Of a stretch of DNA of 64,000 nucleotides, positions 13,188 through 64,000 are shown one piece after another. A program made the position numbers and the translations under genes. This DNA is from Nakamurella flava (GTDB lineage: Bacteria; Actinomycetota; Actinomycetes; Mycobacteriales; Nakamurellaceae): assembly GCF_005298075.1 (NCBI RefSeq), contig NZ_SZZH01000001.1, forward strand, positions 1,984,001 to 2,048,000, in the 5' to 3' direction. The notes below the pieces were generated by a model. That model was not told the DNA's origin. It did not search any database and worked only from the letters and a program-made list of their open reading frames with translations. Numbering within the stretch: the first letter of the stretch is position 1; each line of letters begins with the position of its first letter.

Positions 13188-13191
13188 GGCC

Positions 13192-14511: not shown

Positions 14512-14598
14512 GGTGGGGTTGGCTCTCTCTCGTCGTCCCGGGCGGATGAACGCCGGTGGGCGGTGCGCCGGGCCCGGTGGGGCCCGGCGGCGGGGGGA

Positions 14599-15432: not shown

Positions 15433-15501
15433 GTCATCCCTCGGGTGGTCGGGTCGGGTGGGTCGGAAGTGGTCGGTGAAGTCGTCCGGACGTGGTCCGG
15501 C

Positions 15502-39949: not shown

Positions 39950-41332
39950 ATGCCCCTCTCTCGCCGTCGTTTCCTGTCCGTCGCCTCGGCCACCGCCGGG
40001 CTGACGGTGGCCTCTCTCGCGGGTCCACGGTCGGCGCTGGCCGCGGGTTCGTCGTTCACCGTCGCGGTCATCCCGGACACCCAGCAGGAGGTCTTCGGAT
40101 CGGACCGCCGCTTCGGCCAGCGCACCCGGTGGCTGGCCGACAACCGCTCGGCCCTCGGCCTGGCCTTCGTCGCCCACACCGGGGACGTCGTGAACTGGGA
40201 CACCCCCGACCACTCCCAGTACGCCGTCGCCAGCCAGGCGTTCGAGAACCTCGACCGGGCCGGCATCGGTTGGCTGCCCAGCATCGGCAACCACGACACC
40301 GCCGCGGTCGGGGTCGGCGGCAGCGCCGCGGACCCCCGCCGTACGCGCGCCCTGGTCCGCGACACCACCACCTTCAACGACTACTTCCCGACCTCCCGGA
40401 TGCGCTCCCTGAGCGGGACGTTCGAGAACGGGAAGATCGACAACGCCTACTCCACCTTCACCGCCGGCGGCGCGCAGTGGATGCTGCTGAGCCTGGAACT
40501 CTGGCCGCGCGCCGCGGCGGTGGCCTGGGCCGACGCGGTGCTGGCGGCCCATCCCCGCCACAACGTCATCCTGTCCACCCACAGCCACCTGAACGGCGAC
40601 GGCACCGTCTACGGCCGCGCCGACTACGGCGACACCAGCCCTCAACAGCTCCTCGACCAGCTCCTCCGCCCCCGCGCCAATGTCAAGATCGTGCTGTCCG
40701 GGCACGTGGGCCTGGCCGGGCACCGCATCGACACCCACACCGACGGTTCCCGCTTCGCCTCGTTCCTCGGCACCTTCCATTCCAACAGCACCAACCCCGT
40801 CCAGCTCCTGACCATCGACCCGGACGCCGGCACCATCGCGACCCGGTTCACGGCCCCCGCCAACGGCCAGACCTGGCCCGAGTACGCCACGACCGTCGAC
40901 GGGATGACCTTCTCCCGCTCCAGTGACGGGGCCGAGTCGAGCCGGGCCGTGGCTCTGCAAGCACGGGTCAACGCTCGGTTCGTGACGGCCGAGGCGGCCG
41001 GCACGCGCTCCCTCATCGCGAATCGGGACGGAGTGGGGCTCTGGGAGACCTTCGACCTGGTCTCACTCGCCGATGGCGGGAGTGCTCTGCGAGCCCGGGC
41101 CAACGGCCGGTTCGTCTGCGCCGACGGCGCCGGCTCGCTGCCGTTGATCGCCAACCGGGACGCGGTCGGCACATGGGAGACCTTTGATCTCGTCCCGACC
41201 GGGGGCGGGGACGCCCTACGGTCCCGGGCCAACGGTCTGTTCGTCTGCGCCGACGGGGCCGGCAGTCAGCCGCTACAGGCGAACCGGTCGGCCGCGGGGT
41301 TGTGGGAGACCCTGGTCATCGTCGGCGCCTGA
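39950..41332 (+). CDS. Tat-exported metallophosphoesterase with beta-trefoil tail
   Basis: 460 residues. The N-terminus MPLSRRRFLSVASATAGLTV is a Tat signal with cleavage after AALA-like residues. The calcineurin-like phosphoesterase core shows VAVIPDTQQE, FVAHTGDVVNWD, PSIGNHDTAA, ILSTHSHLNGDG and IVLSGHVGLAGH, giving the full set of metal-binding residues. From about residue 325, three repeats of about 42 residues each end in ANRDxxGxWETFDLV-like motifs (the third is diverged), resembling a fascin/ricin-type beta-trefoil. It likely hydrolyses phosphate esters outside the cell, with the trefoil binding a glycan or surface. Substrate unknown. Confidence 0.87.
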   Translation: MPLSRRRFLSVASATAGLTVASLAGPRSALAAGSSFTVAVIPDTQQEVFGSDRRFGQRTRWLADNRSALGLAFVAHTGDVVNWDTPDHSQYAVASQAFENLDRAGIGWLPSIGNHDTAAVGVGGSAADPRRTRALVRDTTTFNDYFPTSRMRSLSGTFENGKIDNAYSTFTAGGAQWMLLSLELWPRAAAVAWADAVLAAHPRHNVILSTHSHLNGDGTVYGRADYGDTSPQQLLDQLLRPRANVKIVLSGHVGLAGHRIDTHTDGSRFASFLGTFHSNSTNPVQLLTIDPDAGTIATRFTAPANGQTWPEYATTVDGMTFSRSSDGAESSRAVALQARVNARFVTAEAAGTRSLIANRDGVGLWETFDLVSLADGGSALRARANGRFVCADGAGSLPLIANRDAVGTWETFDLVPTGGGDALRSRANGLFVCADGAGSQPLQANRSAAGLWETLVIVGA

Positions 41333-48569: not shown

Positions 48570-49541
48570 TCAGCCGGTCGTAGCGGGCGCGGTCGGTCGT
48601 GCGTACTCGGTGTACGTGCTGCCGATCGCGCCCCGCACGTAGCCCACGCCCTTCATCATGGTGCGGCGGCCCCGAGCGTGATGCCGCTGGGACCGGGTGA
48701 CCGTGCCCACCGCCATCCGCACGGCTCCGCCGGCCACCCGGATCGCGCCGCGGCCTGCCATCTCGGCCCGCACCAGAACTCGCCGCGCACCGGGCTCGGC
48801 GAGCACGATCGAGGTTCGGCTCCACGAGTTGCCGTAGCGCATCGCCCGCTTCGTCACCCACTGACGGGTGGTGCGAGCGGCGGGCACGTGATCCACCACG
48901 ATCGCCTCGTCGCACCACACCATGGGCAGACCCGCCCCTGTCAGCTGACGAGTGAACAGAGTGTCCGATCCGCCGCTGAGACCGAACGCCGAGTCGAATC
49001 GGAGGCCTGCGTCGCGGATCTTCGCCAGGTCCAGGAGCAGGTTGTTGGTCGCCGCGGTCTCGATCCGAGTCCCGGTCGGCATACGGCGCCGCTCGAAAAA
49101 CCCCCCCGCGGCGATCCATGGATCCAATGAGCCGATGAAGTCGGAGATCACCGGCCCGACCACCGCCGCTGGACGATGGGCCCGGTAGGTGGCCAGGAGG
49201 TCTCGCAACCAGTTCTCGCTGGGGGTCTCGTCGTCGTCGATGAAGATGAGGAGATCATCGTCGGGAGCCTGGTCGAGAGCATGGTTGCGCGCCGCGGCGA
49301 TTCCCGCCTGTGGCTCGATCGAGTACGAGATGCGAGGGTCGCCGATCAAGTCGACGACGGGGCGGGCGGCGCCCTCCGGGTCGTTGTCGACCACCAGCAC
49401 GCGGCAGGCGTCGGAGACGGTCTCGATCTGGACCAGGATCAGGGGCAGGGTCGCCCGCAATTCCTCCAGACGCCGGTAGGTGACCAGGGCGACGACCACG
49501 GAGAGCGCGGTGTCTTCCCCAGGCCGGTCCGAAGTGTTCAC
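48570..49541 (-). CDS. Glycosyltransferase family 2
   Basis: 323 residues from the GTG at 49541, preferred because GGCGGAG lies six bases before it; an ATG at 49577 would add 12 residues. GT-A motifs are SVVVALVTYRRLEELRATLP, VLVVDNDPEGAARPVVD, GIAAARNHALDQAPDDDLLI, FIDDDETPSENWL (DxD) and GLSGGSDTLFTRQL. The C-terminal region is basic and may contact the membrane. It is convergent with the glycosyltransferase ending at 48549 (20-base gap) and lies beyond the 3' end of the first giant secreted protein on the same strand. Sugar unknown. Confidence 0.88.
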   Translation of the reverse strand: MNTSDRPGEDTALSVVVALVTYRRLEELRATLPLILVQIETVSDACRVLVVDNDPEGAARPVVDLIGDPRISYSIEPQAGIAAARNHALDQAPDDDLLIFIDDDETPSENWLRDLLATYRAHRPAAVVGPVISDFIGSLDPWIAAGGFFERRRMPTGTRIETAATNNLLLDLAKIRDAGLRFDSAFGLSGGSDTLFTRQLTGAGLPMVWCDEAIVVDHVPAARTTRQWVTKRAMRYGNSWSRTSIVLAEPGARRVLVRAEMAGRGAIRVAGGAVRMAVGTVTRSQRHHARGRRTMMKGVGYVRGAIGSTYTEYARPTAPATTG

Positions 49542-49670
49542 GTGTGGCTCCGCCTTCTGCTGGCTGATGTGCGACATGTCATTCCATTCACTACAGGATC
49601 TCGGAGCCGAGACGGTCGGTCCGGTTCGGGCGCCGTCGCGCCGAGGCTGGGTCGTCGACCACCGCGCCGG

Positions 49671-52298
49671 TCAGGGTGCCGCAGCGGCACCGACGGTACG
49701 ACTGGTCGACGCCGTTCCTCCACGGTTGTCGGTCACCGTCAGCGTGACCGTGTAATCCCCCGGGGTGTCGTACGAGTGCCGAGCGCTCTGCCCACTGCCT
49801 GAGCTCCCGTCGCCGAAATCCCACCGATAGGTGGCGATCGAACCGTCCGGATCGGTGGATCCGGACCCGTTCACCGCGACGTCCATATAGCTCAGGGCCA
49901 TCGCGAAATCGGCTGAGGGCACGATATTGGCGGGGCCGGTTCCGGAACCCAGGGCGTAGTGCTCCTTCACCTGGTCCGCCGTCAGGACCACCGGGTAGAC
50001 AGCGGCCTCGTCCAGTGCCCCGGCGAAGTACGAGCTGGTCGACCCCCAGGTCTTGTCGCCACCGATCCGCCAGTAGCCGGTGTAGTTCTGGGCAGCCGTC
50101 TGCTTGTTCGTCCCGGCGATGGCGCCGTCCACGTACAGCTTCATCCCGTCCGGGCCCTGGGTGGCCACGACGTGATGCCACTGACCGTCGTTGTACGCCT
50201 TGGGTGAGGTCACCTTGTTCTGGACGCCGGTGTATGTGCCGAAGACCAGCCGCCCGTCATCCTGCATGTAGACGTGTCGGTCGTAGCTGCCCGAGAGCCC
50301 TTGCTGAGCGGAACCGAAACCGATCAGTTTGCCCCCACGAGAGGTGGCGGTCTTGAACCACAACTCTGTGGAATACACGCTGGGCGGAAGTGTCTGCGTG
50401 CCGGCGACAACGGTTCCGGTAGCGCCATCGAAGGTGCTGGCGGTGTTGCTGTCACCACTGATCGCACCCGCGGCGCCCCGGGTCACCGCCGGGCCGACGG
50501 CCCCGTCGTTGAAGCCGGCCCAGTCGTACGCGGTGGTGCCGGACGCCTCGCCCAGGCGCCAGAACAGGTTCGCTCCCTGGTCCTTCACCGCCCGCGAGTA
50601 CGGACTCAGCTCCGGCCCGTCAGCCGGCACGGTGACGGAGACGGTGTCGCCGCCGACCTGGTTGCCGTCCTTGTCAGTCGCGAAAACTCGGTACCGGTAG
50701 TCACCTGGGGCCAGACCGGTGTCGGTGAACCCGAGCGACGGCCGGTCCCAGTAGGTCGACGTCGCCGTCGTCGTATAGACCGGGGCCGCGGTGTTGCTGT
50801 TGCGGACCACCTTGTAGGTCAGGTTCATGTCGTCGCGGTCCCAGTTCGCCGAGAACGCCACCCGAACGGTGCCTTTCGTCAGCGAAACGAGACTTGGCGT
50901 GAACTTGGAACCGGTGAGCATCGGACCGGACTTCCCCGGGGCCGGCGGCTTGGTGGCAAAGCGGACCAGACCCTGCTGACCGGTTCCGTTGACCTGCGGG
51001 AACTCGCCACCGACCGAGATGTACTGGCCGGACCCGACGATGTTCCAGCCGGCCTGGTTCTGCCCGCTGACGGTCCCGGTCTTGAAGTCCGGGAACCAGT
51101 TGATCAACGACGGGCTCGGATTGCCCTGCCAATTGGTGTACCCGTGCGGATCCGATCCGATTGTTCCGGTGACCCCCTTCGAGAAGGCGAGCGCGAAACG
51201 TTGATTGGTCGACCATGGGTTCGACTGGAAGAACCCGCCGATGTTGCCGCAGTAGTGAGCGTGGCTGGTCGTGTACACCGCCGCGCTGGTCGCCCACACC
51301 GAATACGTGTCCCCGTGACAGTCCTCGATCCACCGGATCTCACCGCTGATCGGATCCACGGCGAAAGTCCCCTCCAGATTCCCCCCCGCACCGTAGTGAT
51401 ACCCCGTCCCGTACACCGACGACCCGTCGGTGGACAAACTGGTGATCGCCGCATTGGGACCCGCGTTACGCACCTTCTGATTGGCCGCGAAAGGCAACAA
51501 TGCCGACGAGCGTATGTCCACCGCAGCCAATCCGTACGCTGGACTTCCGTTGATGTTCTGGAACCCACCGCCTAGGACGAGTCGACTCTTGTCCGGCGAC
51601 AGGACCATCGCATTGACGGTGTAATCCGCCTGTGGCGCCCAGGTGGTCAATGCACCGTTGTCGGCCCGGAACGCGGCCAGCCGGGCACGGGGCTGACCGT
51701 TGGCCGCCGTGAACTGTCCACCGATGTACACCGTGTCATTGGTCGCCACAATGGACTTCACCCGTGATCCGACATTCACATTGAATGTCGTGATCAGCGC
51801 ACCCGTCGTGGCGTCGAAAGCCGCCACCCGGTTTCGCGCCGAACTACCACCCACCGTGGTGAATTCACCTGCCGCGTAGATCCGCTGACCGTCCGGCGAC
51901 GCAGCGACGGCCAGAACCTGACCGTTGAGGGCCGGCGGCACGAAGCCCGTCTTCAGGGCGCCGGTGGTGATGTCGTAGGCCAGCAGATTCGCCCGCGGCG
52001 TCAGGTTCGTGCCGGCGGCCGCACCCGCCGGACGCGCGTTCGCGAACTTGCCACCCGCATACACCGTGTTACCGATCGTCGCCTGCGACCACACCATCCC
52101 GTCGACCTGCACCGTCGGCAACGCATCCGCCGTCACCTGGTCGGCGGTCGGGCTCAGCACCGGACTCTTCCCAGTCCCCTGGTCGGCGGCCGCCGCCACA
52201 GCGGGAGGGACGACGACAATGGATGCCACGGTCAGCATCAGCGACGCGGCAATCGCCCATCCGCTCTTCAGGCGAGAGCGAGCAGCAGATCTGGGCAT
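49671..52298 (-). CDS. Secreted propeller-FN3-LamG-PKD protein (short paralogue)
   Basis: 875 residues, with GGGGGA eight bases before the ATG at 52298. The signal peptide (about 1-38) ends in AVAAAADQ. Residues 50-440 hold GGxF repeats (YAGGKFANARP, YAAGEFTTVGG, YIGGQFTAANG, VLGGGFQNING, SVGGEFPQVNG), suggesting a beta-propeller. An FN3-like domain follows at about 448-559, one LamG/jelly-roll domain at about 569-779 (GANLFWRLGEASGTTAYDWA, KLYVDGAIAGT), and one PKD domain at 793-875 (WDFGDGSSGSG). It lacks the extra LamG, the further PKD repeats and the C-terminal domain of its paralogues. No LPxTG or membrane tail is seen. It is probably a secreted glycan-binding protein; function unproven. 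Confidence 0.82.
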   Translation of the reverse strand: MPRSAARSRLKSGWAIAASLMLTVASIVVVPPAVAAAADQGTGKSPVLSPTADQVTADALPTVQVDGMVWSQATIGNTVYAGGKFANARPAGAAAGTNLTPRANLLAYDITTGALKTGFVPPALNGQVLAVAASPDGQRIYAAGEFTTVGGSSARNRVAAFDATTGALITTFNVNVGSRVKSIVATNDTVYIGGQFTAANGQPRARLAAFRADNGALTTWAPQADYTVNAMVLSPDKSRLVLGGGFQNINGSPAYGLAAVDIRSSALLPFAANQKVRNAGPNAAITSLSTDGSSVYGTGYHYGAGGNLEGTFAVDPISGEIRWIEDCHGDTYSVWATSAAVYTTSHAHYCGNIGGFFQSNPWSTNQRFALAFSKGVTGTIGSDPHGYTNWQGNPSPSLINWFPDFKTGTVSGQNQAGWNIVGSGQYISVGGEFPQVNGTGQQGLVRFATKPPAPGKSGPMLTGSKFTPSLVSLTKGTVRVAFSANWDRDDMNLTYKVVRNSNTAAPVYTTTATSTYWDRPSLGFTDTGLAPGDYRYRVFATDKDGNQVGGDTVSVTVPADGPELSPYSRAVKDQGANLFWRLGEASGTTAYDWAGFNDGAVGPAVTRGAAGAISGDSNTASTFDGATGTVVAGTQTLPPSVYSTELWFKTATSRGGKLIGFGSAQQGLSGSYDRHVYMQDDGRLVFGTYTGVQNKVTSPKAYNDGQWHHVVATQGPDGMKLYVDGAIAGTNKQTAAQNYTGYWRIGGDKTWGSTSSYFAGALDEAAVYPVVLTADQVKEHYALGSGTGPANIVPSADFAMALSYMDVAVNGSGSTDPDGSIATYRWDFGDGSSGSGQSARHSYDTPGDYTVTLTVTDNRGGTASTSRTVGAAAAP

Positions 52299-52480
52299 TG
52301 AGATTCCCCCACAGTCAGGTCTACGGCTAGCGAACCCGGACCCCGCGGCTTCACTCGATTGGCCTAGCGTAGACAACGCGGAGCGACACAGCAACGCCGA
52401 GGGGACAGATTCAGCCGGCCGAGTACGCCATGTGGGACTCCTTCGCCACGGTCGGTGCAGCGAATGACCACCCAACCGCA

Positions 52481-52513
52481 GCTGGCCCGGTCGACAACTC
52501 CGACCGGGCCAGC
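52481..52513 (-). terminator. Hairpin downstream of the 1499-residue paralogue
   Basis: A 13-bp inverted repeat (GCTGGCCCGGTCG and complement) with a seven-base loop lies 26 bases after the stop at 52539. Its stem core is shared with the terminator of the next paralogue at 57236-57269. No strong U-run. Confidence 0.65.
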
Positions 52514-52538
52514 GCACCGCGACATCAGATCGAACGGC

Positions 52539-55500
52539 TCACCCAAGCGGGATGGTGGTGATGGTGAGGTTGTCGAACGAGGCCACCACCGGAGCATTGG
52601 TCGCCGTCCCCGCCAGATACGCCTGCAACCCCACCGCACCCGGACCCTGCAACACCGACTCCGCATCCGTCACCGTCGACTGCCACCCCGCCGGCTCGGC
52701 CGCCGAGCTCTTCCACACCTTCGCCGACAACGTCGTGGTCCCCACACCCTGCGCCTGGAACCCCAACCGCAACACATCACCCGGAGCCCACGTCATCCCC
52801 GACACCGTCTGCGTCCGCAACACCGTCTCAGTCCCATTGACCACCTTGGCCAACTGGATCTGCACCGACGACGGCTGGATCCGCACCTTGAACCGGTAAT
52901 CCGAAGTCCCCACCCGACGCACCGCAACACTGGTGTACGTCCCACCACCCGTGCTCGCCTTGTCATACGTGAAATCCACCGTGCCCCGCAGATCCGACGC
53001 CGACACCGAGTTCAACCACGCCAACGGACCCGAACCCGCCTTCGCGATCTGCAAATTCCCCGTCCCATTGGCCACCGAGAACTGCGACGCACTCCCATTC
53101 AGAGTCCACGCACCACCGGTCTCCGCCGAACCCAAACCACCGGACACCGCCCGACCGAACGCATCGGACACATACGCCGTCGGCGTCGCCGGATTCGACA
53201 CCGTCACCGACCTCGTCACCGTGTTCGTCGCACCCTGATTGTCAGTGACCGTCAACGACACCTGATACGTCCCCGCCGCCCCATACGTGTGCGACGCCGT
53301 CCGACCAGTCTCCGCAGAGTTGTCACCGAAATCCCACGCCCACGCCGACACCGAACCATCCGCATCAGACGACGACCCACCATCAAAACTGGCCGCCAAA
53401 CCCGACACCGTCTCCGTGAACGCCGCCACCGGCGCCTTGTTCACCGGCGGCGGAGCCGTCACCGTCACCGACTTCGACACCGACGACGACGCACCATCAT
53501 CATCAGTCACCTTCAACGTCACCTGATAAGACCCAGCCGACCCATACGTATGCACCGCCGTCGCACCCGAATCAGAACCACCATCACCGAACGACCACTC
53601 ATACGACTTGACCGACCCATCAGAATCCGACGACCCCGTCCCATCCACCGTCGCCGTCAAACCCGCCGAGGTCACATCAAACGCCGCCACCGGCGGCGCA
53701 TTCGGCGGCGGCGCCGTCACCGTCACCTGCTGCGACGACACACCCGTCAAACCCTTGTCATCGGTCACCGTCAACGACACCGTGTACGTCCCCGCCCCGG
53801 CATACGTATGCGACGCCGTCGCACCCGAACCCGACCCACCATCACCAAACGACCACGCCCAAGACTTCACCGATCCGTCCGAATCCGACGAACCCGAACC
53901 ATCCACCGACAACGACAGGTCCTGACTGCCAGAGGTGAAGGATGCCGTGGGCGGACGGTTGGGCAGGGCTCCGGACTGGCCGAGCGCGTAGTGGTCGGCC
54001 ACCTGCTGCGCGGACAGCACGGATGGGTAGACGGCGGCCTCGTCCAATGAACCGGCAAGGTAGGAGCTGGTCGATCCCCAGGTGCGATCGCCGCCGATCC
54101 GCCAGTAACCGTCGTAGTTCTGGGCCCCGGCCTGAGGATTGGTGCCCACCACCGCTCCGTCGACGTACAGCTTCATCCCGCCGGCACCCTGGGTGGCGAC
54201 CACCTGGTGCCAGCGGCCGTCGTTGTAGCTGGCGGGCGAGGTCACGAGATTCTGGACCCCGGTGTAGGTGCCGAAGACCAGCCGTCCGTCGTTCTGCATG
54301 TAGACGTGCCGGTCGTAGCTCGCGGACAGACCCTGCTGGGCCGAGCCGAACCCGATCAGCTTGCCGCCCCGCGCAGTGGTCGTCTTGAACCAGACCTCGG
54401 CCGAGTACGTCGTGGGATTGCTGAACTTGTTGTCGGACGTCACCACCCCGGTCGTCCCGTCGACGGTGACCGCCGCATTGTTCACACCGGAGAGGGCCCC
54501 CGCGGCGCCAAGGGTGACGGCGCCTCGGTAGGTACCCGAATTCAGCTGCCGGCCGGAGTCGGCCGCGGTGACGCCACTGGATTCGGCCAGACGCCAGTAG
54601 AGAGTCGGCGCGTCGCGATAGACGGCAGCACCGTAGGCGTCCGCCGGTGCGGCAGGCACCGGGGAGACCCGCCCGGAAGCGACCCATTGGGCGATGACGT
54701 CATCGGGACTCAGGGCCGTCGGGTAGATCGACACGTCGTCGATGTCACCGATGAAGTAGTCCTTCGTGGGCCGGGACGCCCAGCCGCTGAGGTTGTCGCC
54801 GCCGATCCGCCAGAAACCGGGATAGACGGCCCCGGTGGTGGTGTCGGTCCGTTGGCCGACCTGCACACCGTCGACGAACAGCGTCATACCGTTCGGGCCG
54901 AGGGTCGAGACGACCTGATGCCACTGGCCGTCGTTGTAGCTCTTCGGGCTGCTGAGCACCCGCCGGGTGCCGCCGGACGAGACCCCGAAGGTGAGCTTGC
55001 CGTCGTTGGTCATGTAGACGTGTCGATCGGTCGTCACCGAGGCGCCGGCCGGCAACCGTCCGAAGCCGACGATCCGACCGCCCGACGTGGTGGTCGTCCG
55101 GAACCAGGCCGAAGTGGAAAACGTGGTCGGTGCGGACTGCAGCGAGGGGGCCGACACCCGACTGTCGGTCGTGCCGGTGAAGGTGCTCGCCGTGTTCGGA
55201 TCGCCGTTGAGGGACCCGGGCGCGCCCCGGGTCACCGCGGTCCCGACCGACGCGTCGGAGTACCCCGCCGAGTCGTAGGCCCAGCTCCCGGTTGCCTCAC
55301 CGAGCCGCCACAGACTGCTCGCGCCCTGCTGCCGCACCGTCGTGACGTAGTCGGTCGGGCCGGGAGGCGCGGTCGGGACGGTGACGTAGGCGGTGTCGCC
55401 GGCGACCTGGTTGCCGTCCTTGTCCAGGACGTAGAGGCGGTAGCGGTAATCACCCGGCGCGAGGCCGGTGTCGGTGAATCCGAGCGACGGCCGGTCCCAG

Positions 55501-57038
55501 TAGGTCGACGTCGCCGTCGTCGTATAGACCGGGGCGGCGGTGTTGCTGTTGCGGACGACCTTGTAGGTCAGGTTCATATCGTCGCGGTCCCAGTTCGCCT
55601 GGAATCCGACCCGGACCGTGCCCGGACCCTGGACCACCAGATTGGGCACGAATTTCGATCCGGTCAGGACCGGGCCCGACTTCCCCGGCGCCGGCGGCTT
55701 CGTCGCGAACCGCACCAGACCCTGCTGACCGGCCCCGTTGACCGTAGGGAACTCCCCGCCGACCGAGATGTACTGGCCGGACCCGACGATGTTCCATCCG
55801 GCCTGGTTCTGCCCGCTGACCTTGCCCGTCTGAAAATCGGGGAACCAGTTGATCAACGACGGGCTCGGATTGCCCTGCCAATTGGTGTACCCGTGCGGGT
55901 CAGCGGTGATCGTTCCGGTCGCGCCCTTGGAGAACGCCAGCGCGAAGCGCTGGTTGGTCGACCACGGATCAGACTGGAAGAACCCGCCGATGTTGCCGCA
56001 GTAGTGAGCGTGGCTGGTCGTGTACACCGCCGCGCTGGTCGCCCACACCGAATACGTGTCCCCGTGACAGTCCTCGATCCACCGGATCTCCCCACTGACC
56101 GGATCCGCGGCGAAAGTCCCCTCCAGATTCCCCCCCGCACCGTAGTGATACCCCGTCCCGTACACCGACGACCCGTCGGTGGACAGACTGGTGATCGCGG
56201 AATTCGTCCCTGCGTTGCGGACCTTCTGATTCGCCGCGTACGGCAGCAGCTCCCCGGTCGTCGCATCGATCGCGGCCAGACCGTAGGCCGCGGCCCCGTT
56301 GATGAACTGGAAGGCGCCGCCGACGATCAGCCGGCTGCCGTCCGGCGACAGCACCATCGCGTTGACGGTGTAATCGGCGGTCGGCGCCCAGGCGGTCAAC
56401 GCGCCGTTGGACGCCTGGTAGGCCGCGAACCGTGTGCGGGCCTGACCGTTGGCGGAGGTGAACTTGCCCCCGACGTAGACCGTGTCGTTCGTCGCGACGA
56501 TGGCCCGGACGGATGACTTGATGTTGACGCTGAACGTGGAGATCAGCGCACCCGTCGTGGCATCGAAGGCTGCGACCCCGTTGCGGACGGTCGATCCGCC
56601 GACCTCCAGGAAGTCGCCGCCGGCATAGACGCGCTTGCCGTCCGGCGAGACGGCGACGGCCAGAACCTGACCGTTGAGGGCCGGCGGCACGAAGCCCGTC
56701 TTCAGGGCCCCGGTGGTGATGTCGTAGGCCAGCAGGTTCGCCCGCGGCGTCTGATTGGTACCGGCGGCCGCACCCGCCGGCCTCGCGTTCGCGAAGCTTC
56801 CACCGGCGTAGACGGTGGTGCCGATCGTCGCCTGGGACCAGACCATCCCGTCGACCTGCACCGTCGGCAGGGCGTCCGCGGTGAGTTGATCGGCGGTCGG
56901 GCTGAGCACCGGACTCACACCGGGAGGCTGGTCCGCCGCCCTTGCCAATCCGGGCAGCCAAGCGACAAGCCCGGCGAACACCAGAACGGCCACCACGAAG
57001 ACAGAGACGGGTCGCCGACTGACGGTTGACCACTTCAT
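52539..57038 (-). CDS. Secreted propeller-FN3-LamG-PKD protein (middle paralogue)
   Basis: 1499 residues. The signal segment is VFVVAVLVFAGLVAWLPGLA, cleaved near ARAADQ. Domain order: GGxF propeller (about 50-440), FN3 (about 449-560), LamG 1 (about 569-785), LamG 2 (about 803-1018; YWRLAESSGVTAADSGRQ), three PKD domains (about 1031-1280; WSFGDGGSGSG, WSFGDGGSDSG, WDFGDNSAETG), and a C-terminal jelly-roll-like domain of about 210 residues (DAFGRAVSGGLGS to DNLTITTIP). Its last 457 codons are DNA-identical to those of the 57311 gene. No sorting signal is visible. It is likely secreted into the matrix; a binding role is inferred. Confidence 0.83.
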   Translation of the reverse strand: MKWSTVSRRPVSVFVVAVLVFAGLVAWLPGLARAADQPPGVSPVLSPTADQLTADALPTVQVDGMVWSQATIGTTVYAGGSFANARPAGAAAGTNQTPRANLLAYDITTGALKTGFVPPALNGQVLAVAVSPDGKRVYAGGDFLEVGGSTVRNGVAAFDATTGALISTFSVNIKSSVRAIVATNDTVYVGGKFTSANGQARTRFAAYQASNGALTAWAPTADYTVNAMVLSPDGSRLIVGGAFQFINGAAAYGLAAIDATTGELLPYAANQKVRNAGTNSAITSLSTDGSSVYGTGYHYGAGGNLEGTFAADPVSGEIRWIEDCHGDTYSVWATSAAVYTTSHAHYCGNIGGFFQSDPWSTNQRFALAFSKGATGTITADPHGYTNWQGNPSPSLINWFPDFQTGKVSGQNQAGWNIVGSGQYISVGGEFPTVNGAGQQGLVRFATKPPAPGKSGPVLTGSKFVPNLVVQGPGTVRVGFQANWDRDDMNLTYKVVRNSNTAAPVYTTTATSTYWDRPSLGFTDTGLAPGDYRYRLYVLDKDGNQVAGDTAYVTVPTAPPGPTDYVTTVRQQGASSLWRLGEATGSWAYDSAGYSDASVGTAVTRGAPGSLNGDPNTASTFTGTTDSRVSAPSLQSAPTTFSTSAWFRTTTTSGGRIVGFGRLPAGASVTTDRHVYMTNDGKLTFGVSSGGTRRVLSSPKSYNDGQWHQVVSTLGPNGMTLFVDGVQVGQRTDTTTGAVYPGFWRIGGDNLSGWASRPTKDYFIGDIDDVSIYPTALSPDDVIAQWVASGRVSPVPAAPADAYGAAVYRDAPTLYWRLAESSGVTAADSGRQLNSGTYRGAVTLGAAGALSGVNNAAVTVDGTTGVVTSDNKFSNPTTYSAEVWFKTTTARGGKLIGFGSAQQGLSASYDRHVYMQNDGRLVFGTYTGVQNLVTSPASYNDGRWHQVVATQGAGGMKLYVDGAVVGTNPQAGAQNYDGYWRIGGDRTWGSTSSYLAGSLDEAAVYPSVLSAQQVADHYALGQSGALPNRPPTASFTSGSQDLSLSVDGSGSSDSDGSVKSWAWSFGDGGSGSGATASHTYAGAGTYTVSLTVTDDKGLTGVSSQQVTVTAPPPNAPPVAAFDVTSAGLTATVDGTGSSDSDGSVKSYEWSFGDGGSDSGATAVHTYGSAGSYQVTLKVTDDDGASSSVSKSVTVTAPPPVNKAPVAAFTETVSGLAASFDGGSSSDADGSVSAWAWDFGDNSAETGRTASHTYGAAGTYQVSLTVTDNQGATNTVTRSVTVSNPATPTAYVSDAFGRAVSGGLGSAETGGAWTLNGSASQFSVANGTGNLQIAKAGSGPLAWLNSVSASDLRGTVDFTYDKASTGGGTYTSVAVRRVGTSDYRFKVRIQPSSVQIQLAKVVNGTETVLRTQTVSGMTWAPGDVLRLGFQAQGVGTTTLSAKVWKSSAAEPAGWQSTVTDAESVLQGPGAVGLQAYLAGTATNAPVVASFDNLTITTIPLG
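52549..53920. repeat. Copy A of a 1372-bp direct repeat
   Basis: Matches 57321-58692 at a constant offset of 4772 with no difference found by eye. It covers the codons for three PKD domains and the C-terminal domain. The coding strand uses G- and T-ending codons far more than the C-ending codons of adjacent segments, and the switch is abrupt at the repeat edge. Confidence 0.9.
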
Positions 57039-57235
57039 TCGACGACCACTCCCCCGGTTGTCCGCAGCTCGTCCTCACCGAAGGTCGACTGCAGTCATCA
57101 CTCTTTCGGCGCATCGTAATCGGACAACCGGTAGCGAAACAAGCCTAATGGGTGGTACGGCACTGGATGGCGGTAGGTGCCCTGGGGGTTGCGCACCACC
57201 CGGCGTAACACACGCACGCCTGCGGAAAAACGTGA

Positions 57236-57269
57236 GATGGCCCGGTCGGAAAGATCCGACCGGGCCATC
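57236..57269 (-). terminator. Hairpin terminator downstream of the large paralogue
   Basis: A 15-bp perfect inverted repeat (GATGGCCCGGTCGGA and complement) with a four-base loop lies 41 bases after the stop at 57311, followed on the minus strand by TCACGTTTTT. It shares the TGGCCCGGTCG core with the hairpin at 52481-52513. Confidence 0.8.
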
Positions 57270-57310
57270 ATCGTCACCGGAACCGCGTCACACGGACCCG
57301 TGAATCCGAA

Positions 57311-60300
57311 TCACTGCTTGGGGATGGTGGTGATGGTGAGGTTGTCGAACGAGGCCACCACCGGAGCATTGGTCGCCGTCCCCGCCAGATACGCCTGCAA
57401 CCCCACCGCACCCGGACCCTGCAACACCGACTCCGCATCCGTCACCGTCGACTGCCACCCCGCCGGCTCGGCCGCCGAGCTCTTCCACACCTTCGCCGAC
57501 AACGTCGTGGTCCCCACACCCTGCGCCTGGAACCCCAACCGCAACACATCACCCGGAGCCCACGTCATCCCCGACACCGTCTGCGTCCGCAACACCGTCT
57601 CAGTCCCATTGACCACCTTGGCCAACTGGATCTGCACCGACGACGGCTGGATCCGCACCTTGAACCGGTAATCCGAAGTCCCCACCCGACGCACCGCAAC
57701 ACTGGTGTACGTCCCACCACCCGTGCTCGCCTTGTCATACGTGAAATCCACCGTGCCCCGCAGATCCGACGCCGACACCGAGTTCAACCACGCCAACGGA
57801 CCCGAACCCGCCTTCGCGATCTGCAAATTCCCCGTCCCATTGGCCACCGAGAACTGCGACGCACTCCCATTCAGAGTCCACGCACCACCGGTCTCCGCCG
57901 AACCCAAACCACCGGACACCGCCCGACCGAACGCATCGGACACATACGCCGTCGGCGTCGCCGGATTCGACACCGTCACCGACCTCGTCACCGTGTTCGT
58001 CGCACCCTGATTGTCAGTGACCGTCAACGACACCTGATACGTCCCCGCCGCCCCATACGTGTGCGACGCCGTCCGACCAGTCTCCGCAGAGTTGTCACCG
58101 AAATCCCACGCCCACGCCGACACCGAACCATCCGCATCAGACGACGACCCACCATCAAAACTGGCCGCCAAACCCGACACCGTCTCCGTGAACGCCGCCA
58201 CCGGCGCCTTGTTCACCGGCGGCGGAGCCGTCACCGTCACCGACTTCGACACCGACGACGACGCACCATCATCATCAGTCACCTTCAACGTCACCTGATA
58301 AGACCCAGCCGACCCATACGTATGCACCGCCGTCGCACCCGAATCAGAACCACCATCACCGAACGACCACTCATACGACTTGACCGACCCATCAGAATCC
58401 GACGACCCCGTCCCATCCACCGTCGCCGTCAAACCCGCCGAGGTCACATCAAACGCCGCCACCGGCGGCGCATTCGGCGGCGGCGCCGTCACCGTCACCT
58501 GCTGCGACGACACACCCGTCAAACCCTTGTCATCGGTCACCGTCAACGACACCGTGTACGTCCCCGCCCCGGCATACGTATGCGACGCCGTCGCACCCGA
58601 ACCCGACCCACCATCACCAAACGACCACGCCCAAGACTTCACCGATCCGTCCGAATCCGACGAACCCGAACCATCCACCGACAACGACAGGTTCTCCCCG
58701 GCGGTGGTGAACGAGGACGTCGGAGCCTTGTTGGCCGGTGGGGCGGTCACGGTGACGTCCTTGGTCGTCGCGTTGGTCGCGCCCTTGTCGTCGGTCACCG
58801 TCAGCTTGACCGTGTAGGTCCCGCCAGCCGTGTAGGTGTGCGACGCGGTCGCACCGTCAGCGGTCGCACCGTCACCGAACTCCCAGTGGTAGCCGGCCAC
58901 GGTCCCGTCGGAATCCGACGAGGTGCTGCCGTCCACCGCCAGCGCCAGCTGGTTCGCCGTGGCCGTGAAGGCCGCGGTCGGAGCCGCGTTGGGCGGCGGG
59001 GCGGTCACGGTGACGTCCTTGGTCGTCGCGTTGGTCGCGCCCTTGTCGTCGGTCACCGTCAGCTTGACCGTGTAGGTCCCGCCAGCCGTGTAGGTGTGCG
59101 ACGCGGTCGCACCGTCAGCGGTCGCACCGTCACCTAACTCCCAGTGGTAGCCGGCCACGGTCCCGTCGGAATCCGACGAGGTGCTGCCGTCCACCGCCAG
59201 CGCCAGCTGGTTCGCCGTGGCCGTGAAGGCCGCGGTCGGAGCCTTGTTCGGCAGCGCACCGGTGGCGCCGAGCGAGTAGTGCGTCGCGACCTGATCCGCG
59301 CTCAGCACGGTCGGGTACACCGCCGCGTCGTCCAGGCTGCCGGCGAAGTACGCGCTGGACGAGCCCCAGGTGTTGTCGCCGCCGATCTTCCAGAAGCCGT
59401 CGTAACCCTGGGCCTGGGTCTGCGGGTTGGTGCCGACCAACGACCCGTCGATGTACAGCTTCATGCCGTCGGCGCCCTGCGAGGCGACCATGTGGTGCCA
59501 CTTGTCGTCGTTCAGCGCCGTCGGCGTGGTGATCGTGTTGAGCTGGCCGGTGTACGTGCCGAAGACCAAGTGGCCGTCGTCCTGCATGTAGACGTGCCGG
59601 TCGTAGGCCCCGGAGTTGCCGGACTGGTTGTTACCGAACCCGATGAGCTTGCCGCCCCGGTTGGTGGAGGTCTTGAACCAGATCTCCTCCGAGTAGGTGG
59701 TCGGGTTGGAGAACCCGTTGTCCGAGGTCGTCATGGCGCTGTTGCCGTCGTACGTGGCCGAGGTGCCGACCCCGCCGGACAGGGCGCCCGGGGCGCCGAG
59801 GGTGACCCCGTTGTAGTAGGTGCCCGAGTTCAGCGACCGCGACGAGTCGGCGGCGGTGGTGCCGGTCGACTCGTTCAGCCGCCAGAAGATCGCAGGCTGC
59901 GCGTCGTAGACGGCCGCACCGTAGGCGTCGGTCGGACGGGCCGGGATCGGCGAGGTCCGACCTGAATCCACGTACTGCTGCAGGACCTGGTCCGCAGTCA
60001 GCGCGGTCGCATAGACCGCGGCCTCGTCGATGTCACCGGCGAGGTAGCCGCTGTTGATGGCACCCGGCCATCCACCGAGGTTATCGCCGCCGACGTGCCA
60101 GTAACCGGTGTAGTTGTACGCGGTGGTGACGTCGGCGCGGCCGGCCACCCGGACACCGTCGACGTAGAGGTTCATACCGTCTGCGCCGAGGGTCGAGGTG
60201 ACGAAGTGCCACTGACCGTCGTTGTAGCTCTTGCCCGAGGTGACGGTCTGGGTCCCGTTGATGTAGACGCCGAAGTTGATGCGGCCCTCGTTGGTCATGT

Positions 60301-62332
60301 AGGTGTGCCGGTCGTAGTTCGACGACCAGTCACCCTGCGAGTCACCGAAGCCGATGATCTTGCCGCCGTTGGTGCTGGTGGTCCGCACCCACGCCGACTG
60401 GCTGAAGGTGGTCGGGGCGCTCTGCCGCACCCCGGCCACGACCTTGCTGCCGGTGGTGCCGTCGAAGGTGCTCGCGGTGTTGGTGTCCCCGTTGACCGCA
60501 CCCGCCGCTCCCCGGGTCACCGCGGGGCCGACGATGCCGTCGTTGAAGCCGGCCCAGTCGTACGCCGTGGTGCCGGACGCCTCGCCCAGCCGCCAGAACA
60601 GGTTGGCGCCCTGGTTCTTCACCGTCTGCGCGTACTGGCTCGGGTCCTGCCCGTCGGCCGGCACGGTGATGTAGGCGGTGTCGCCGGCGACCTGGTTGCC
60701 GTCCTTGTCGATCACATACAGGCGGTACCGGTAGTCCCCCGGGGCCAGCCCGGTGTCGGTGAAGCCCAGCGCCGGACGGTCCCAGTAGGTCGACGTCGCG
60801 GTCGTGGTGTAGACCGGCGCCGCGGTGTTGCTGTTGCGCACCACCTTGTAGGTCAGGTTCATGTCGTCCTTGTCCCAGTTGGCCTGGAAGGCGACGCGGA
60901 CACTGCCCTTGGCCAGGGACACCAGCGACGGGGTGAACTTGCTACCCGTCAGCACCGGACCGGACTTGCCGGGGGCCGGCGGCTTGGTCGCAAACCGCAC
61001 CAGGCCCTGCTGACCGGCCCCGTTGACCTGCGGGAACTCGCCGCCGACCGAGATGTACGGGCCCGAACCGACGATGTTCCAGCCGGCCTGGTTCTGCCCG
61101 CTGACGGTCCCGGTCTTGAAGTCCGGGAACCAGTTGATCAACGACGGGCTGGCGGTTCCCCGCCAGTCGTGGTAGCCCAGCGGGTCACCGGTGACGACGC
61201 CGGTCGCGTTCTTGGAGAACGCCAGCGCGAACCGCTGGTTGGTCGACCACGGGTCGGACTGCGGAAAACCACCGATGGTGCCGCAGTAGTGCGCGTGGCT
61301 GGTGGTGTAGACGGCCGCGGAGGTCGCCCACGCCGAGTAGGTGTCGCCGTGGCAGTCCTCGACCCAGTTGATCGCCCCGGTGTTCGGGTCGGCCGAGAAG
61401 GTGCCCTCGAGGTTGCCGCCGGGTCCGTAGACGTAACCGGTCCCGTAGATCGTGGTCCCGTCGGTGCTCAGGCTGTTGATCGCCGCATTGGCACCCGAGT
61501 TCTGGATCTTCTGATTGGCGTCGAAAGGCAGCAGGGTGCCCTGCGCGGTATCGATCGCGGCCAGGCCGTAGACCGTCGAACCGTTGATCGCCTGGAAGGC
61601 GCCGCCGACGATCAGCTTGGACTTGTCCGGGGACAGCACCATCGCGTTGACGGTGTAGTCGGCCGTGGGCGCCCACCCGGTGAGCGCACCGTTGGAGGCG
61701 GCGTACGCCGCGAGCCGGCTGCGGGGCTGGCCGTTGGCCGAGGTGAACTGCCCGCCCACGTAGACCGTGTCATTGGTGGCGACGATGGCCCGGACCCGGG
61801 ATCCGATGTTGACGTTGAACGTCGTGATCAGGGCACCGGTCGTGGCGTCGAACGCCGCGACGCGGTTGCGGAACTGATTGCCCCCGACCGTGGTGAAATC
61901 GCCCGCGGCGTAGATCCGCTTCCCGTCCGGCGACGCAGCAACGGCCAGAACCTGACCGTTGAGGGCCGGCGGCACAAAGCTGGTCTTGAGGGCCCCGGTG
62001 GTGATGTCGTAGGCCAGCAGGTTCGCCCGCGGCGTCAGGTTCGTGCCGGCGGCCGCACCCGCCGGACGCGCGTTCGCGAACTTGCCACCCGCATACACCG
62101 TGTTACCGATCGTCGCCTGCGACCACACCATCCCGTCGACCTGCACCGTCGGCAACGCATCCGCCGTCACCTGGTCGGCGGTCGGGCTCAGTACCGGGCT
62201 GGTGCCCGGCGGCAGGTCGGCCGCCACCGCGACGCTGGACGCGCCGACAGTGGTCACCACGCTGGCCGCGAACAGCCCAGCGATGGTCGCCAGCGACGTC
62301 AGACGCCGCCGGAGGGACGGGGCAGATCGCAT
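57311..62332 (-). CDS. Secreted propeller-FN3-LamG-PKD protein (large paralogue)
   Basis: About 1673 residues from the ATG at 62332, which has AGGAGAAG at good spacing. An ATG at 62353 overlaps the upstream stop (ATGA), has GGAG, and is a real alternative. The signal peptide is LATIAGLFAASVVTTVGASS. Domain order: GGxF propeller (about 50-450), FN3 (about 455-570), two LamG domains (about 570-1030), five PKD domains (about 1030-1460), and the C-terminal jelly-roll-like domain to the end. PKD 1 and 2 are a near-identical tandem pair. PKD 3-5 and the C-terminal domain are identical to the neighbouring paralogue. It is probably a secreted matrix protein. Confidence 0.83.
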   Translation of the reverse strand: MRSAPSLRRRLTSLATIAGLFAASVVTTVGASSVAVAADLPPGTSPVLSPTADQVTADALPTVQVDGMVWSQATIGNTVYAGGKFANARPAGAAAGTNLTPRANLLAYDITTGALKTSFVPPALNGQVLAVAASPDGKRIYAAGDFTTVGGNQFRNRVAAFDATTGALITTFNVNIGSRVRAIVATNDTVYVGGQFTSANGQPRSRLAAYAASNGALTGWAPTADYTVNAMVLSPDKSKLIVGGAFQAINGSTVYGLAAIDTAQGTLLPFDANQKIQNSGANAAINSLSTDGTTIYGTGYVYGPGGNLEGTFSADPNTGAINWVEDCHGDTYSAWATSAAVYTTSHAHYCGTIGGFPQSDPWSTNQRFALAFSKNATGVVTGDPLGYHDWRGTASPSLINWFPDFKTGTVSGQNQAGWNIVGSGPYISVGGEFPQVNGAGQQGLVRFATKPPAPGKSGPVLTGSKFTPSLVSLAKGSVRVAFQANWDKDDMNLTYKVVRNSNTAAPVYTTTATSTYWDRPALGFTDTGLAPGDYRYRLYVIDKDGNQVAGDTAYITVPADGQDPSQYAQTVKNQGANLFWRLGEASGTTAYDWAGFNDGIVGPAVTRGAAGAVNGDTNTASTFDGTTGSKVVAGVRQSAPTTFSQSAWVRTTSTNGGKIIGFGDSQGDWSSNYDRHTYMTNEGRINFGVYINGTQTVTSGKSYNDGQWHFVTSTLGADGMNLYVDGVRVAGRADVTTAYNYTGYWHVGGDNLGGWPGAINSGYLAGDIDEAAVYATALTADQVLQQYVDSGRTSPIPARPTDAYGAAVYDAQPAIFWRLNESTGTTAADSSRSLNSGTYYNGVTLGAPGALSGGVGTSATYDGNSAMTTSDNGFSNPTTYSEEIWFKTSTNRGGKLIGFGNNQSGNSGAYDRHVYMQDDGHLVFGTYTGQLNTITTPTALNDDKWHHMVASQGADGMKLYIDGSLVGTNPQTQAQGYDGFWKIGGDNTWGSSSAYFAGSLDDAAVYPTVLSADQVATHYSLGATGALPNKAPTAAFTATANQLALAVDGSTSSDSDGTVAGYHWELGDGATADGATASHTYTAGGTYTVKLTVTDDKGATNATTKDVTVTAPPPNAAPTAAFTATANQLALAVDGSTSSDSDGTVAGYHWEFGDGATADGATASHTYTAGGTYTVKLTVTDDKGATNATTKDVTVTAPPANKAPTSSFTTAGENLSLSVDGSGSSDSDGSVKSWAWSFGDGGSGSGATASHTYAGAGTYTVSLTVTDDKGLTGVSSQQVTVTAPPPNAPPVAAFDVTSAGLTATVDGTGSSDSDGSVKSYEWSFGDGGSDSGATAVHTYGSAGSYQVTLKVTDDDGASSSVSKSVTVTAPPPVNKAPVAAFTETVSGLAASFDGGSSSDADGSVSAWAWDFGDNSAETGRTASHTYGAAGTYQVSLTVTDNQGATNTVTRSVTVSNPATPTAYVSDAFGRAVSGGLGSAETGGAWTLNGSASQFSVANGTGNLQIAKAGSGPLAWLNSVSASDLRGTVDFTYDKASTGGGTYTSVAVRRVGTSDYRFKVRIQPSSVQIQLAKVVNGTETVLRTQTVSGMTWAPGDVLRLGFQAQGVGTTTLSAKVWKSSAAEPAGWQSTVTDAESVLQGPGAVGLQAYLAGTATNAPVVASFDNLTITTIPKQ
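57321..58692. repeat. Copy B of the 1372-bp direct repeat
   Basis: Pairs with 52549-53920. The match begins within the last two or three codons of each gene, where one ends in LG and the other in KQ, and stops abruptly inside a PKD domain. Outside these edges the two genes fall back to ordinary paralogue similarity. Confidence 0.9.
58743..59243. repeat. Tandem 258-bp PKD-coding repeat
   Basis: Two units (58743-58985 and 59001-59243) share 243 bases, with a period of 258 bases (86 codons). The only difference I see is one base that changes WEFGDG to WELGDG in the second unit along the DNA (the first PKD in the protein). Such near-identity implies a recent duplication or ongoing homogenisation. 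Confidence 0.88.
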
Positions 62333-62349
62333 CGGGTTCTTCTCCTGGT

Positions 62350-63099
62350 TCATGACGCAACTCCGGTGAACAGCGCGATCGGCGCGCCGGCCGCGTAGGC
62401 GAGGCTGAGGGTGGTGGGGCCGCTGAAGTCGGCCGGCAGGGTGAAGACGTAGACGCCCTGGGCGGACTGGCCCGGGGCGAGCGAGCCGGTCAGCGGCTTG
62501 GCCGGATCACCCTCGATGGAGCTGAACGGGGCACCCGACTGGTCCTGGACGTTCACGGAAACGCCGGCCAGGTCCACCGCGGTCGAGCCGGTGTTGCTGA
62601 CAGTCACGGTGTAAGCCAGGGCGGGCCCGGAGATCTCACCGACGCCCCGTCCGGTCGCATCGACCTGCTGCACGCCGTCGACCGTGGCGGTCACCTCCGG
62701 GTCGACGGCGACCGCCTGCTGGAACGAAGCCGGGGCCAAGGTCGTCTGCTCGACCGCGGCGACGGTCTGGTTGATGTCGCCGGCCGACGGCGGCGCGACC
62801 GGGGTGGTCGCGGGCGGGGCCTGCTCCGGGGTGCTCGGCGCGGTCGATTCGGACGAGCCCTGTCCGGCCGTGGCCGACGAGTCGGCGGCCGGGACGTCAG
62901 CGGCGGACGAAGCCGGGGTCGACGCGGTCGAGGAGCCCGGCCCGGGTCCCATGGACGACGGCGCGTCGACACCGGGGGGCGTGCTCCCGTCGGCACCGGA
63001 GGTCCCGGTGCAGGCCGCGGTCAGCACTGCCAGGGATGCGAGGGCAGCGACGAATGCACCGGAGCGCAGCCGTCGCGCGCTGGTCGGACGTGTGGTCAT
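62350..63099 (-). CDS. Lipoprotein with Ser/Thr/Pro linker and beta domain
   Basis: 249 residues, with GGGGGGG four bases before the ATG at 63099. FVAALASLAVLTAACTGTSG is a lipoprotein signal with lipobox LTAAC. About 80 residues of Ser/Pro/Thr/Ala linker follow. A C-terminal domain (about 115-249; YTVTVSNTGSTAVDLAGVSV, LAPGQSAQGVYVFTLP, LSLAYAAGAPIALFTG) resembles DUF4352-like beta-sandwich domains. It overlaps the possible upstream start of the large paralogue (ATGA) and so is probably in its operon. It may anchor or escort that secreted protein; this is inference. Confidence 0.72.
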   Translation of the reverse strand: MTTRPTSARRLRSGAFVAALASLAVLTAACTGTSGADGSTPPGVDAPSSMGPGPGSSTASTPASSAADVPAADSSATAGQGSSESTAPSTPEQAPPATTPVAPPSAGDINQTVAAVEQTTLAPASFQQAVAVDPEVTATVDGVQQVDATGRGVGEISGPALAYTVTVSNTGSTAVDLAGVSVNVQDQSGAPFSSIEGDPAKPLTGSLAPGQSAQGVYVFTLPADFSGPTTLSLAYAAGAPIALFTGVAS

Positions 63100-63649
63100 G
63101 AGGCCCCCCCGGGCTTGGATCGAACACGCCGGCGTCCCGCCGGCGCGACTGATGAGGTGGTGGTGCGAGTGTCGGCACCCGGAAATCCGAGCCCCCGCCG
63201 ATCGCCACCGATGCCTTCGCCTCGATGTCGCCGCCCCGTTGCGACCACCGGCGAGCACTCCGATGTCACAATGAGTGACAGCGCGGAGTCCGGTTGACCT
63301 GACCCCCGCGATGCGACTCGATCAGACTATCGGCTGACCGTGTCAAAAGTAACGGTCGGTCCATTTTCTCCTCATCGGATGGTGGTACTTCACCCTTTCG
63401 AGCTCACTGATCCGTCCCCTGGAAGGCGATCCGGGTGACCACCCGGTCGACATGCCGAATTCTGACCGTGCCGGATGACGGTCTCCCGGCCCGACGGTCC
63501 GGAGCATCCGGCGGCTCGCTCCACGCCGCTCCGGAGCCCACTTCGACGGATCGCCTAGACGATGACGAAAGCCGCCAGCCGGCCGGACAGGGTCCGGCCG
63601 GCTGGCGGCTTGCAGAGTGCGACGGTGGGCGTCTGGGTTGCCCGCTCGG
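63100..63649 (-). other. Intergenic region upstream of the lipoprotein gene
   Basis: 550 bases between the partial beta-helix-like gene and the lipoprotein gene on the same strand. It contains the terminator at 63571-63609. The AT-richer part at 63310-63400 is the likeliest promoter region for the lipoprotein and giant-protein genes. No credible reading frame is recognised. Confidence 0.45.
63571..63609 (-). terminator. Rho-independent terminator of the beta-helix-like gene
   Basis: An 18-bp perfect inverted repeat (GCCGCCAGCCGGCCGGAC and complement) with a three-base loop lies 41 bases after the stop at 63650, followed on the minus strand by TTTCGTC. It is the strongest stem in the window. 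Confidence 0.85.
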
Positions 63650-64000
63650 TTAGGAGTCGTAGCGGATGCCCGTGTCGCGTCCGACGGTCATCAACCCGTT
63701 GGTGTCCTCCCAGCGGTTGGTCAACAGACCGTAGACCGTGGACCGGGACTGGGAGACGATGCGAATCGCATATTTGGAGCCTCGGCCGAAGTCGTACTGG
63801 TTGCGGCCGAACCAGTTGTATTGCAGGGTCAAAGTGACCGTCGAAAACTTGCCGGGCTGGATGTTGACGCTGTTCTGGGCGTCATCGAACCAGTTCTTCT
63901 CGATGACCAGATTGTTGACCTGGGTGACATTCTGCGTGACCAACAGTGCCGCGCCACCGTGCAGCCCGTACTGACCCAATCCGTCGCCGGCCACTACCGA
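63650..64000 (-). CDS. Parallel beta-helix-like protein, C-terminal part (5' end outside window)
   Basis: The frame is open to the right edge; about 116 residues are visible. VTQVNNLVIEKNWFDDAQNS, TLTLQYNWFGRNQYDFGRGS and STVYGLLTNRWEDTNGLMTV show the N-x-F/W ladder pattern of right-handed parallel beta-helix proteins (pectate-lyase or NosD-like fold). No catalytic residues can be judged from this fragment. It ends with a strong intrinsic terminator and lies upstream of the lipoprotein gene on the same strand. It may belong to a secreted polysaccharide-binding or lyase-type protein. Confidence 0.6.
   Translation of the reverse strand, partial: SVVAGDGLGQYGLHGGAALLVTQNVTQVNNLVIEKNWFDDAQNSVNIQPGKFSTVTLTLQYNWFGRNQYDFGRGSKYAIRIVSQSRSTVYGLLTNRWEDTNGLMTVGRDTGIRYDS

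Follow-up and report, generated by a model that had tools for sequence, protein, structure and literature searches.

Gene conversion between tandem surface-protein genes is already known. In Helicobacter pylori the paralogous adhesin genes babA and babB possess near-identical ends and a divergent remainder, an arrangement that has been attributed to intragenomic gene conversion (PMC4552749), and gene conversion has also been described for PE_PGRS17/PE_PGRS18 and other paralogues of Mycobacterium tuberculosis (PMC1762029, PMC13061034). With regard to long-lasting concerted evolution in prokaryotes, 22 of 26 genes were reported to encode members of stable complexes (PMC6053082). Here we describe a block of 1372 bp that is identical in two neighbouring genes, termed B and C, of Nakamurella flava. 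Together with a third family member, gene A, they lie in a stretch of 64,000 nucleotides (positions 1,984,001 to 2,048,000 of contig NZ_SZZH01000001.1; hereafter the window, whose own numbering is used); throughout this work each species is represented by one genome. The reading that we prefer, with a probability of about 0.8, is a local triplication followed by gene conversion between the neighbours, including a latest event in which the end of B or C was overwritten by that of the other. That the copying took place by conversion and not in another way is what we infer.

All three genes are arranged head to tail on the minus strand and encode proteins with propeller-like heads (Rax2/DUF5122 in Pfam). 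According to open reading frames and Pfam, gene A (49671..52517, 948 aa) contains one LamG and one PKD domain behind the head and no terminal module, gene B (52539..57038, 1499 aa) contains two LamG domains, three PKD domains and a terminal module, and gene C (57311..62353, 1680 aa), for which synteny was used as well, follows the plan of B but with five PKD domains. A stops in its PKD domain without a terminal module; a tail-less form therefore exists beside the two tailed genes. As read by eye from the N-termini the proteins are probably secreted, and we infer a role at the cell surface or in the matrix.

The block copy in B (52549..53920, minus strand), which comprises most of the PKD array and the terminal module, equals the copy in C (57321..58692, minus strand) over all 1372 bp at an offset of 4772, with 0 mismatches in direct alignment. 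The first mismatches flanking the block are found at 52548 and 53921, and both copies are read in the same frame. The upstream edge is located inside a PKD domain (Pfam) and the downstream edge 7 bases ahead of the stop codon in both genes, the proteins ending in IPLG (B) and IPKQ (C) directly before the stop. The exact alignment bears out the DNA identity that a first-pass annotation had reported for the two genes, as well as the sharp ends in the PKD domain and the last codons; its description of the block as their 3′ third is fair (~30% of B, ~27% of C). Outside the block B and C show 73% DNA identity in the best alignment, and A is ~78% identical to B or C. Even at 78% identity the log10 probability of 0 differences in 1372 sites is about −148, so that chance is ruled out. 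Ahead of the block, B and C agree at a fraction of 0.48–0.70 of their third positions per 60-codon window, with 0.26 in the first, short window. By this divergence the two genes are old paralogues except for the block, which would therefore have been homogenised much later; its age is bounded only by the 0 differences in 1372 sites. A search of the own genome, using 1201 of the block's 1372 bases as query, yielded, besides the two full copies, a long match of 65% identity and a 28-bp match of 93% identity; no third full copy was found with this query. By the coordinates, a recombination event joining the two copies would remove 4772 bp, and its product would carry the head of C, one block and the last codons of B in a single frame. 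The gene fusion and the ~4.8-kb deletion of the first-pass annotation are thus an arithmetic consequence of the coordinates. B and C also mark a spot where draft assemblies and strain comparisons may go wrong.

The locus resembles babA/babB in that paralogous genes of surface-protein type have a near-identical end and a divergent rest (PMC4552749). However, in babA/babB both the N- and the C-terminal parts are near-identical and the middle varies, whereas B and C share one end only and are adjacent genes; furthermore, the B/C block shows a base-composition switch at its edge, while the passages of PMC4552749 used here are without mention of one. As in PE_PGRS17/PE_PGRS18, a tandem duplicate, we deal with conversion between paralogues of a high-GC actinobacterium, but the conversion in M. 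tuberculosis rests on many isolates and that of B and C on one genome plus relatives and on a different protein family. Like the genes of PMC6053082, within-species paralogues are more alike than orthologues; unlike them, the shared part is the terminal module of large, probably secreted proteins. Two other kinds of system were considered and rejected. In an antigenic-variation cassette system silent partial donors feed one expression site and the copied part varies; here both copies form the ends of long, intact genes and are identical, the differences lying in the heads. A mobile element or integron-like cassette was judged by edge repeats, a recombinase and dispersed copies. Among the 13 and 20 pairs of inverted repeats around the two copies none has one arm at each block edge, no recombinase occurs among the neighbouring proteins scanned (part of the open reading frames), and the own genome holds only the two block copies. 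In our searches of the open-access literature we did not find the sharing of one lectin-fold end between genes whose heads stay apart, nor such a module concerted in another genus, nor a block that starts 13 bases or less from an extreme strand-specific loss of optional C.

Shorter tracts connect A to both neighbours. By alignment, A (minus strand) has an exact 170-bp tract at 51988..52157 in common with C (62022-62191) and a near-exact tract at 51223..51436 in common with B (55972-56185; exact runs of 119 and 78 bp), which together with the 1372 bp of B and C form a mosaic of tracts between family members, as expected for concerted evolution. In a synonymous-codon permutation test, for which 30 of 33 within-genome pairs had enough sites and 3 too few, over-long identical runs were observed in all three own-genome pairs (longest runs 447, 54 and 37 codons) and in one of the 27 within-genome pairs of other genomes (21 codons); of the cross-genome controls 4 of 40 passed p<0.05, with runs of 14–18 codons. 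Two more signs of concerted evolution were found: the B/C block is more alike than the divergence of the flanking paralogous DNA allows, and the identical within-genome copies are closer to each other than to the orthologue in G004, the nearest relative in the comparison (72% DNA identity over the block tail, i.e. ~28% different). At A/B/C the latter sign is weak alone because these genes are also a lineage-specific triplication; it is cleaner in the gene pair D1/D2 and in genes of another genus, both described below.

The triplication itself was traced with G004, which holds a single gene orthologous to A, B and C. In the head tree, built with a quick method, A, B and C form one clade apart from this orthologue (Shimodaira–Hasegawa-like approximate likelihood-ratio support, SH-aLRT, 97), and the head of A groups with B. 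Synteny with G004 continues through C into the upstream gene and resumes downstream of A, which makes C the orthologue by position and A and B additional copies. By tree and synteny, then, A, B and C are best read as a lineage-specific triplication of a gene for a propeller-LamG-PKD protein. The terminal-module protein groups with the orthologue of G004 (SH-aLRT 99).

The terminal module of B (52542..53189, minus strand, 216 aa) was examined by structure modelling. The model reached a mean predicted local distance difference test (pLDDT) score of 96.5, and CBM66 chains matched it with TM-scores of 0.74–0.80 by target length at 15–17% identity. Pfam yielded a sub-threshold match only, and no chain of the PDB matches the module sequence at E≤1. 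The module is thus predicted, with high confidence, to adopt a concanavalin-A/CBM66-like beta sandwich, i.e. a lectin fold. Judging from 53 aligned copies, among which 7 columns are invariant, it is widespread and conserved as a protein.

The same module recurs in D1 and D2, adjacent genes in L142, a stretch beyond the window end that overlaps the window by 2 kb (L142:1651-3420 and L142:3873-6050). They have unlike heads and C-terminal parts that are 86% identical; in their N-terminal parts they match the lectin-fold terminal module of B and C. In Pfam, D2 shows a beta-helix match just under the cut-off and D1 none. Over the C-terminal 240 aa, D1 and D2 are 85.8% identical within the own genome and 77.2% within G004, with 64–73% between the genomes. 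These parts group by genome (approximately unbiased, AU, test, p 4e-5 against orthologue grouping), and of the heads one pair groups by orthologue (95/95).

Furthermore, the pattern was met in another genus, g26, where the comparison covers the four species reached. Here two terminal modules lie in one gene, with a DNA identity of 100% in G052, 99.0% in G098, 76.6% in G104 and 72.8% in G060. Between species the modules show 55–67% DNA identity and the heads 67–74%. The repeat of G052, covering PKD and/or terminal module, spans 962 bp with 0 mismatches (L143:11718-12679 and 12699-13660), and the corresponding repeat of G098 (L201) spans 599 bp at 99.3%. These identities suggest that the PKD and lectin-fold end is concerted in this genus too. 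Two further loci were noticed during these comparisons. In Candidatus Anammoxibacter, a locus found via PKD similarity contains a 2.3-kb direct repeat of 91% identity over two neighbouring long open reading frames (L127:9839-12173 and 13370-15707), without C-depletion. In G009, fragments of the A/B/C gene family occur in several frames, one of them with two stops (L044:13275-14918), possibly a decayed or misassembled copy.

The most unusual feature of the block, and one that the first-pass annotation did not mention, is a switch in codon usage. At fourfold sites the block has G.76, T.17, C.07 and A 0, as compared to a C fraction of.46–.47 in the upstream parts of B and C and of.41–.58 in five other genes of the window. 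Two-choice sites change as well, with T in place of C: Asp is encoded by GAT 23 and GAC 6 times in the block versus 21 and 118 times upstream, and Leu by TTG 18 and CTG 4 times versus 9 and 78 times. The likelihood change point for C at optional sites was located at 53919 to 53916 in B (two-unit support 53907-53931; block edge 53920) and at 58691 to 58688 in C (support 58679-58697; block edge 58692), so that in either gene no more than 13 bp separate the switch from the upstream block edge. Only this edge is sharp in composition because the bias fades over the last codons downstream (C.27 in the last 40-codon window of gene C). We scanned 80-codon windows of 296 crude gene models in 484 kb of the own genome (the window, L142 and 20 sampled stretches): 36 of 5540 have a fourfold C below 0.10, and all of these belong to B or C. 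Closest to them in composition is a gene that looks phage-terminase-like by eye, with C.10 and G.69 in one window (L163:17277-18740). In G004 the orthologous PKD/tail end is ordinary in coding, with a fourfold C of.60. Of the 118 sites in the block of B that correspond to a C in G004, 71% carry G and 19% T; for the 264 such sites upstream of the block the values are 38% and 10%. The longer A–C and A–B tracts are C-poor as well (.18 and.19), and of the shorter shared tracts two are less so, with a fourfold C of.29 and.29 (14 and 7 sites), and one, with.55, is not C-poor (11 sites). As an observation from another organism, Arthrobacter sp. H14-L1 carries two PKD repeats that are 98% identical and C-poor in coding (fourfold C.08), with more ordinary coding on both flanks (L064:12946-13485).

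On the sense strand the block contains 34 GGG runs and 0 CCC runs per kb; upstream, B has 22 GGG and 15 CCC runs per kb, and C has 20 and 12. We compared the RNA structure by random synonymous recoding: block RNA reached −44.5 kcal/mol per 120 nt, as opposed to −51.8 (standard deviation 1.3) for versions recoded to the codon usage found elsewhere in B and C, and shuffling the block's own codons gave a similar value (−45.9, standard deviation 1.1). The less structured RNA could reflect selection against strong RNA folding or, equally well, a mutational process. Gene conversion accounts for the identity in an ordinary way; the recoding is unusual and is not explained by conversion. If the block evolved in place, optional C would have been removed from one strand of just the shared part.

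How could the identical ends have arisen? According to the preferred reading, one gene with a beta-propeller-like head, LamG, a PKD stalk and a lectin-fold terminal module would have been triplicated locally into A, B and C inside an exopolysaccharide-type cluster, after the lineage had split from G004. Ectopic homologous recombination (gene conversion) would have copied stretches between the neighbouring genes, and the latest event would have overwritten the whole PKD-plus-terminal end of B or C with that of the other. The upstream tract end would lie where the two PKD arrays fall out of register, the downstream end where the homology of the genes ends. Active homogenisation, one of the two options offered by the first-pass annotation, draws support from the old paralogy outside the block, the short tracts with A, the concerted halves of D1/D2 and the concerted modules of the other genus. 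Several points weigh against it. Near-identical tails are rare, amounting to 2 of 52 tail pairs in 56 locus sets, and these two are B/C and a pair inside a single G052 gene; paired tails follow their heads in G001, G014, G008 and G013, which have two such genes each. By the AU test the heads of D1/D2 stay formally compatible with grouping by genome (p 0.0595), and only one of the two head pairs groups clearly by orthologue. Separate duplication in each of the four species of the other genus is also possible, although it costs more events. Finally, composition edge and identity edge coincide in both genes; for this, both must have had C-poor ends for a long time, or the block must have arrived as a discrete unit.

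The latter points to the second option, a very recent transfer, if this is taken as one from another organism: a discrete C-poor block of outside origin (another genome, a plasmid or a phage) would have been pasted at the PKD junction of one gene and then of the other, or a tail would have been restored to a truncated A-like gene. The silent-site composition unlike that of the host sample, the switch at the upstream edge in both genes and gene A, which shows that a tail-less form exists, would fit such an origin. However, the terminal-module protein groups with an orthologue in G004 that is itself ordinary in coding, the longer tracts with A are C-poor too, and no convincing donor was found: the plasmid collection gave no match, the phage collection one 138-bp match at 70% only, and the viral contigs three distant relatives of the PKD region only. 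We regard this origin as unlikely; the odd base composition is what speaks for a transfer from another organism. Even less probable is an assembly artefact, be it the collapse or duplication of a repeat or the loss of small differences between near-identical copies during polishing. The assembly consists of 13 contigs, and a look-alike in G092 (1917 bp, 100%) with a short N run between the copies may be a scaffolding product. Against this, the window contains no N, both copies are read in an intact frame and sit between flanks unique to each, the loci of G052 and G098 show the same kind of repeat without N, and the real copies would have to be nearly identical anyway. Strong purifying selection on protein or DNA would agree with a module that is widespread and conserved as protein, but it is already refuted because the silent sites are identical too, while the orthologous tail of G004 differs by ~28% in DNA, and we give it next to no weight.

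A causal link between homogenisation and the C-poor coding strand was considered as well. Immunoglobulin switch regions have a G-rich, C-poor non-template strand. The block is like them in this composition only, and here we deal with a bacterium. The switch regions have been linked with R-loops (PMC5485518). By its composition, the G-clustered non-template strand of the block might favour R-loops and recombination, and the gene end would then be a shared, recombination-prone module; either composition drives copying, or repeated copying leaves a strand-specific scar. We consider such a link doubtful. That C-depletion might be general in homogenised DNA was suggested by G052, L064 and other loci. 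In a paired listing from 100 loci, repeated DNA had the lower fourfold C in 11 of 15 sense genes, the exceptions being D1, D2 and the two low-GC genes of L127; the sense genes were chosen by third-position GC and gene identity, antisense and other-frame reading frames were left out, and B and C count twice for one block. Among propeller-family genes outside the own genome, a sample that includes the cases which gave the idea, best repeat identity correlated with the change in fourfold C (Spearman −0.335, p 0.006, n=67), and 8 genes with repeats of at least 85% differed from 59 others in this change (p 0.001). Such a correlation may be partly mechanical, since chance matches are more frequent at silent sites that use few letters. 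A pre-stated test on 20 new loci did not validate a general link: only one of four rows agreed, and the correlation over 18 rows was −0.30 (p 0.23). One of the four rows was an antisense frame and one (G092) has N between the copies; of the two usable rows G098 agrees and L213 does not. The test script took open reading frames from 500 aa with a PKD motif, as against the planned 600 aa with PKD hits. If the composition were cause or scar of recombination, it would provide a sequence signature of homogenising DNA in high-GC bacteria.

The A–C locus is an exopolysaccharide-type gene cluster. On one side it is flanked by genes for a sugar transferase, a Wzz-like protein, a polysaccharide-export-type membrane protein and a family-2 glycosyltransferase, on the other side by a small gene, then the pair D1 and D2 and, further on, a glycosyltransferase. 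The small gene upstream of C (open reading frame 62350..63258, minus strand), whose counterpart is kept upstream of the G004 orthologue, has no Pfam match; its product looks secreted or lipoprotein-like by eye. A hairpin scan of 49000-64000 yielded 6 terminator-like sites where 5.5 are expected by chance. One hairpin lies downstream of C (57236..57269, minus strand), and another that shares its core follows B (52481-52513), a weak hint that both genes already had homologous 3′ ends. Elsewhere in the window, a tandem repeat of ~180 bp with 73% identity (40952-41263) lies within a calcineurin-like phosphoesterase gene or at its end.

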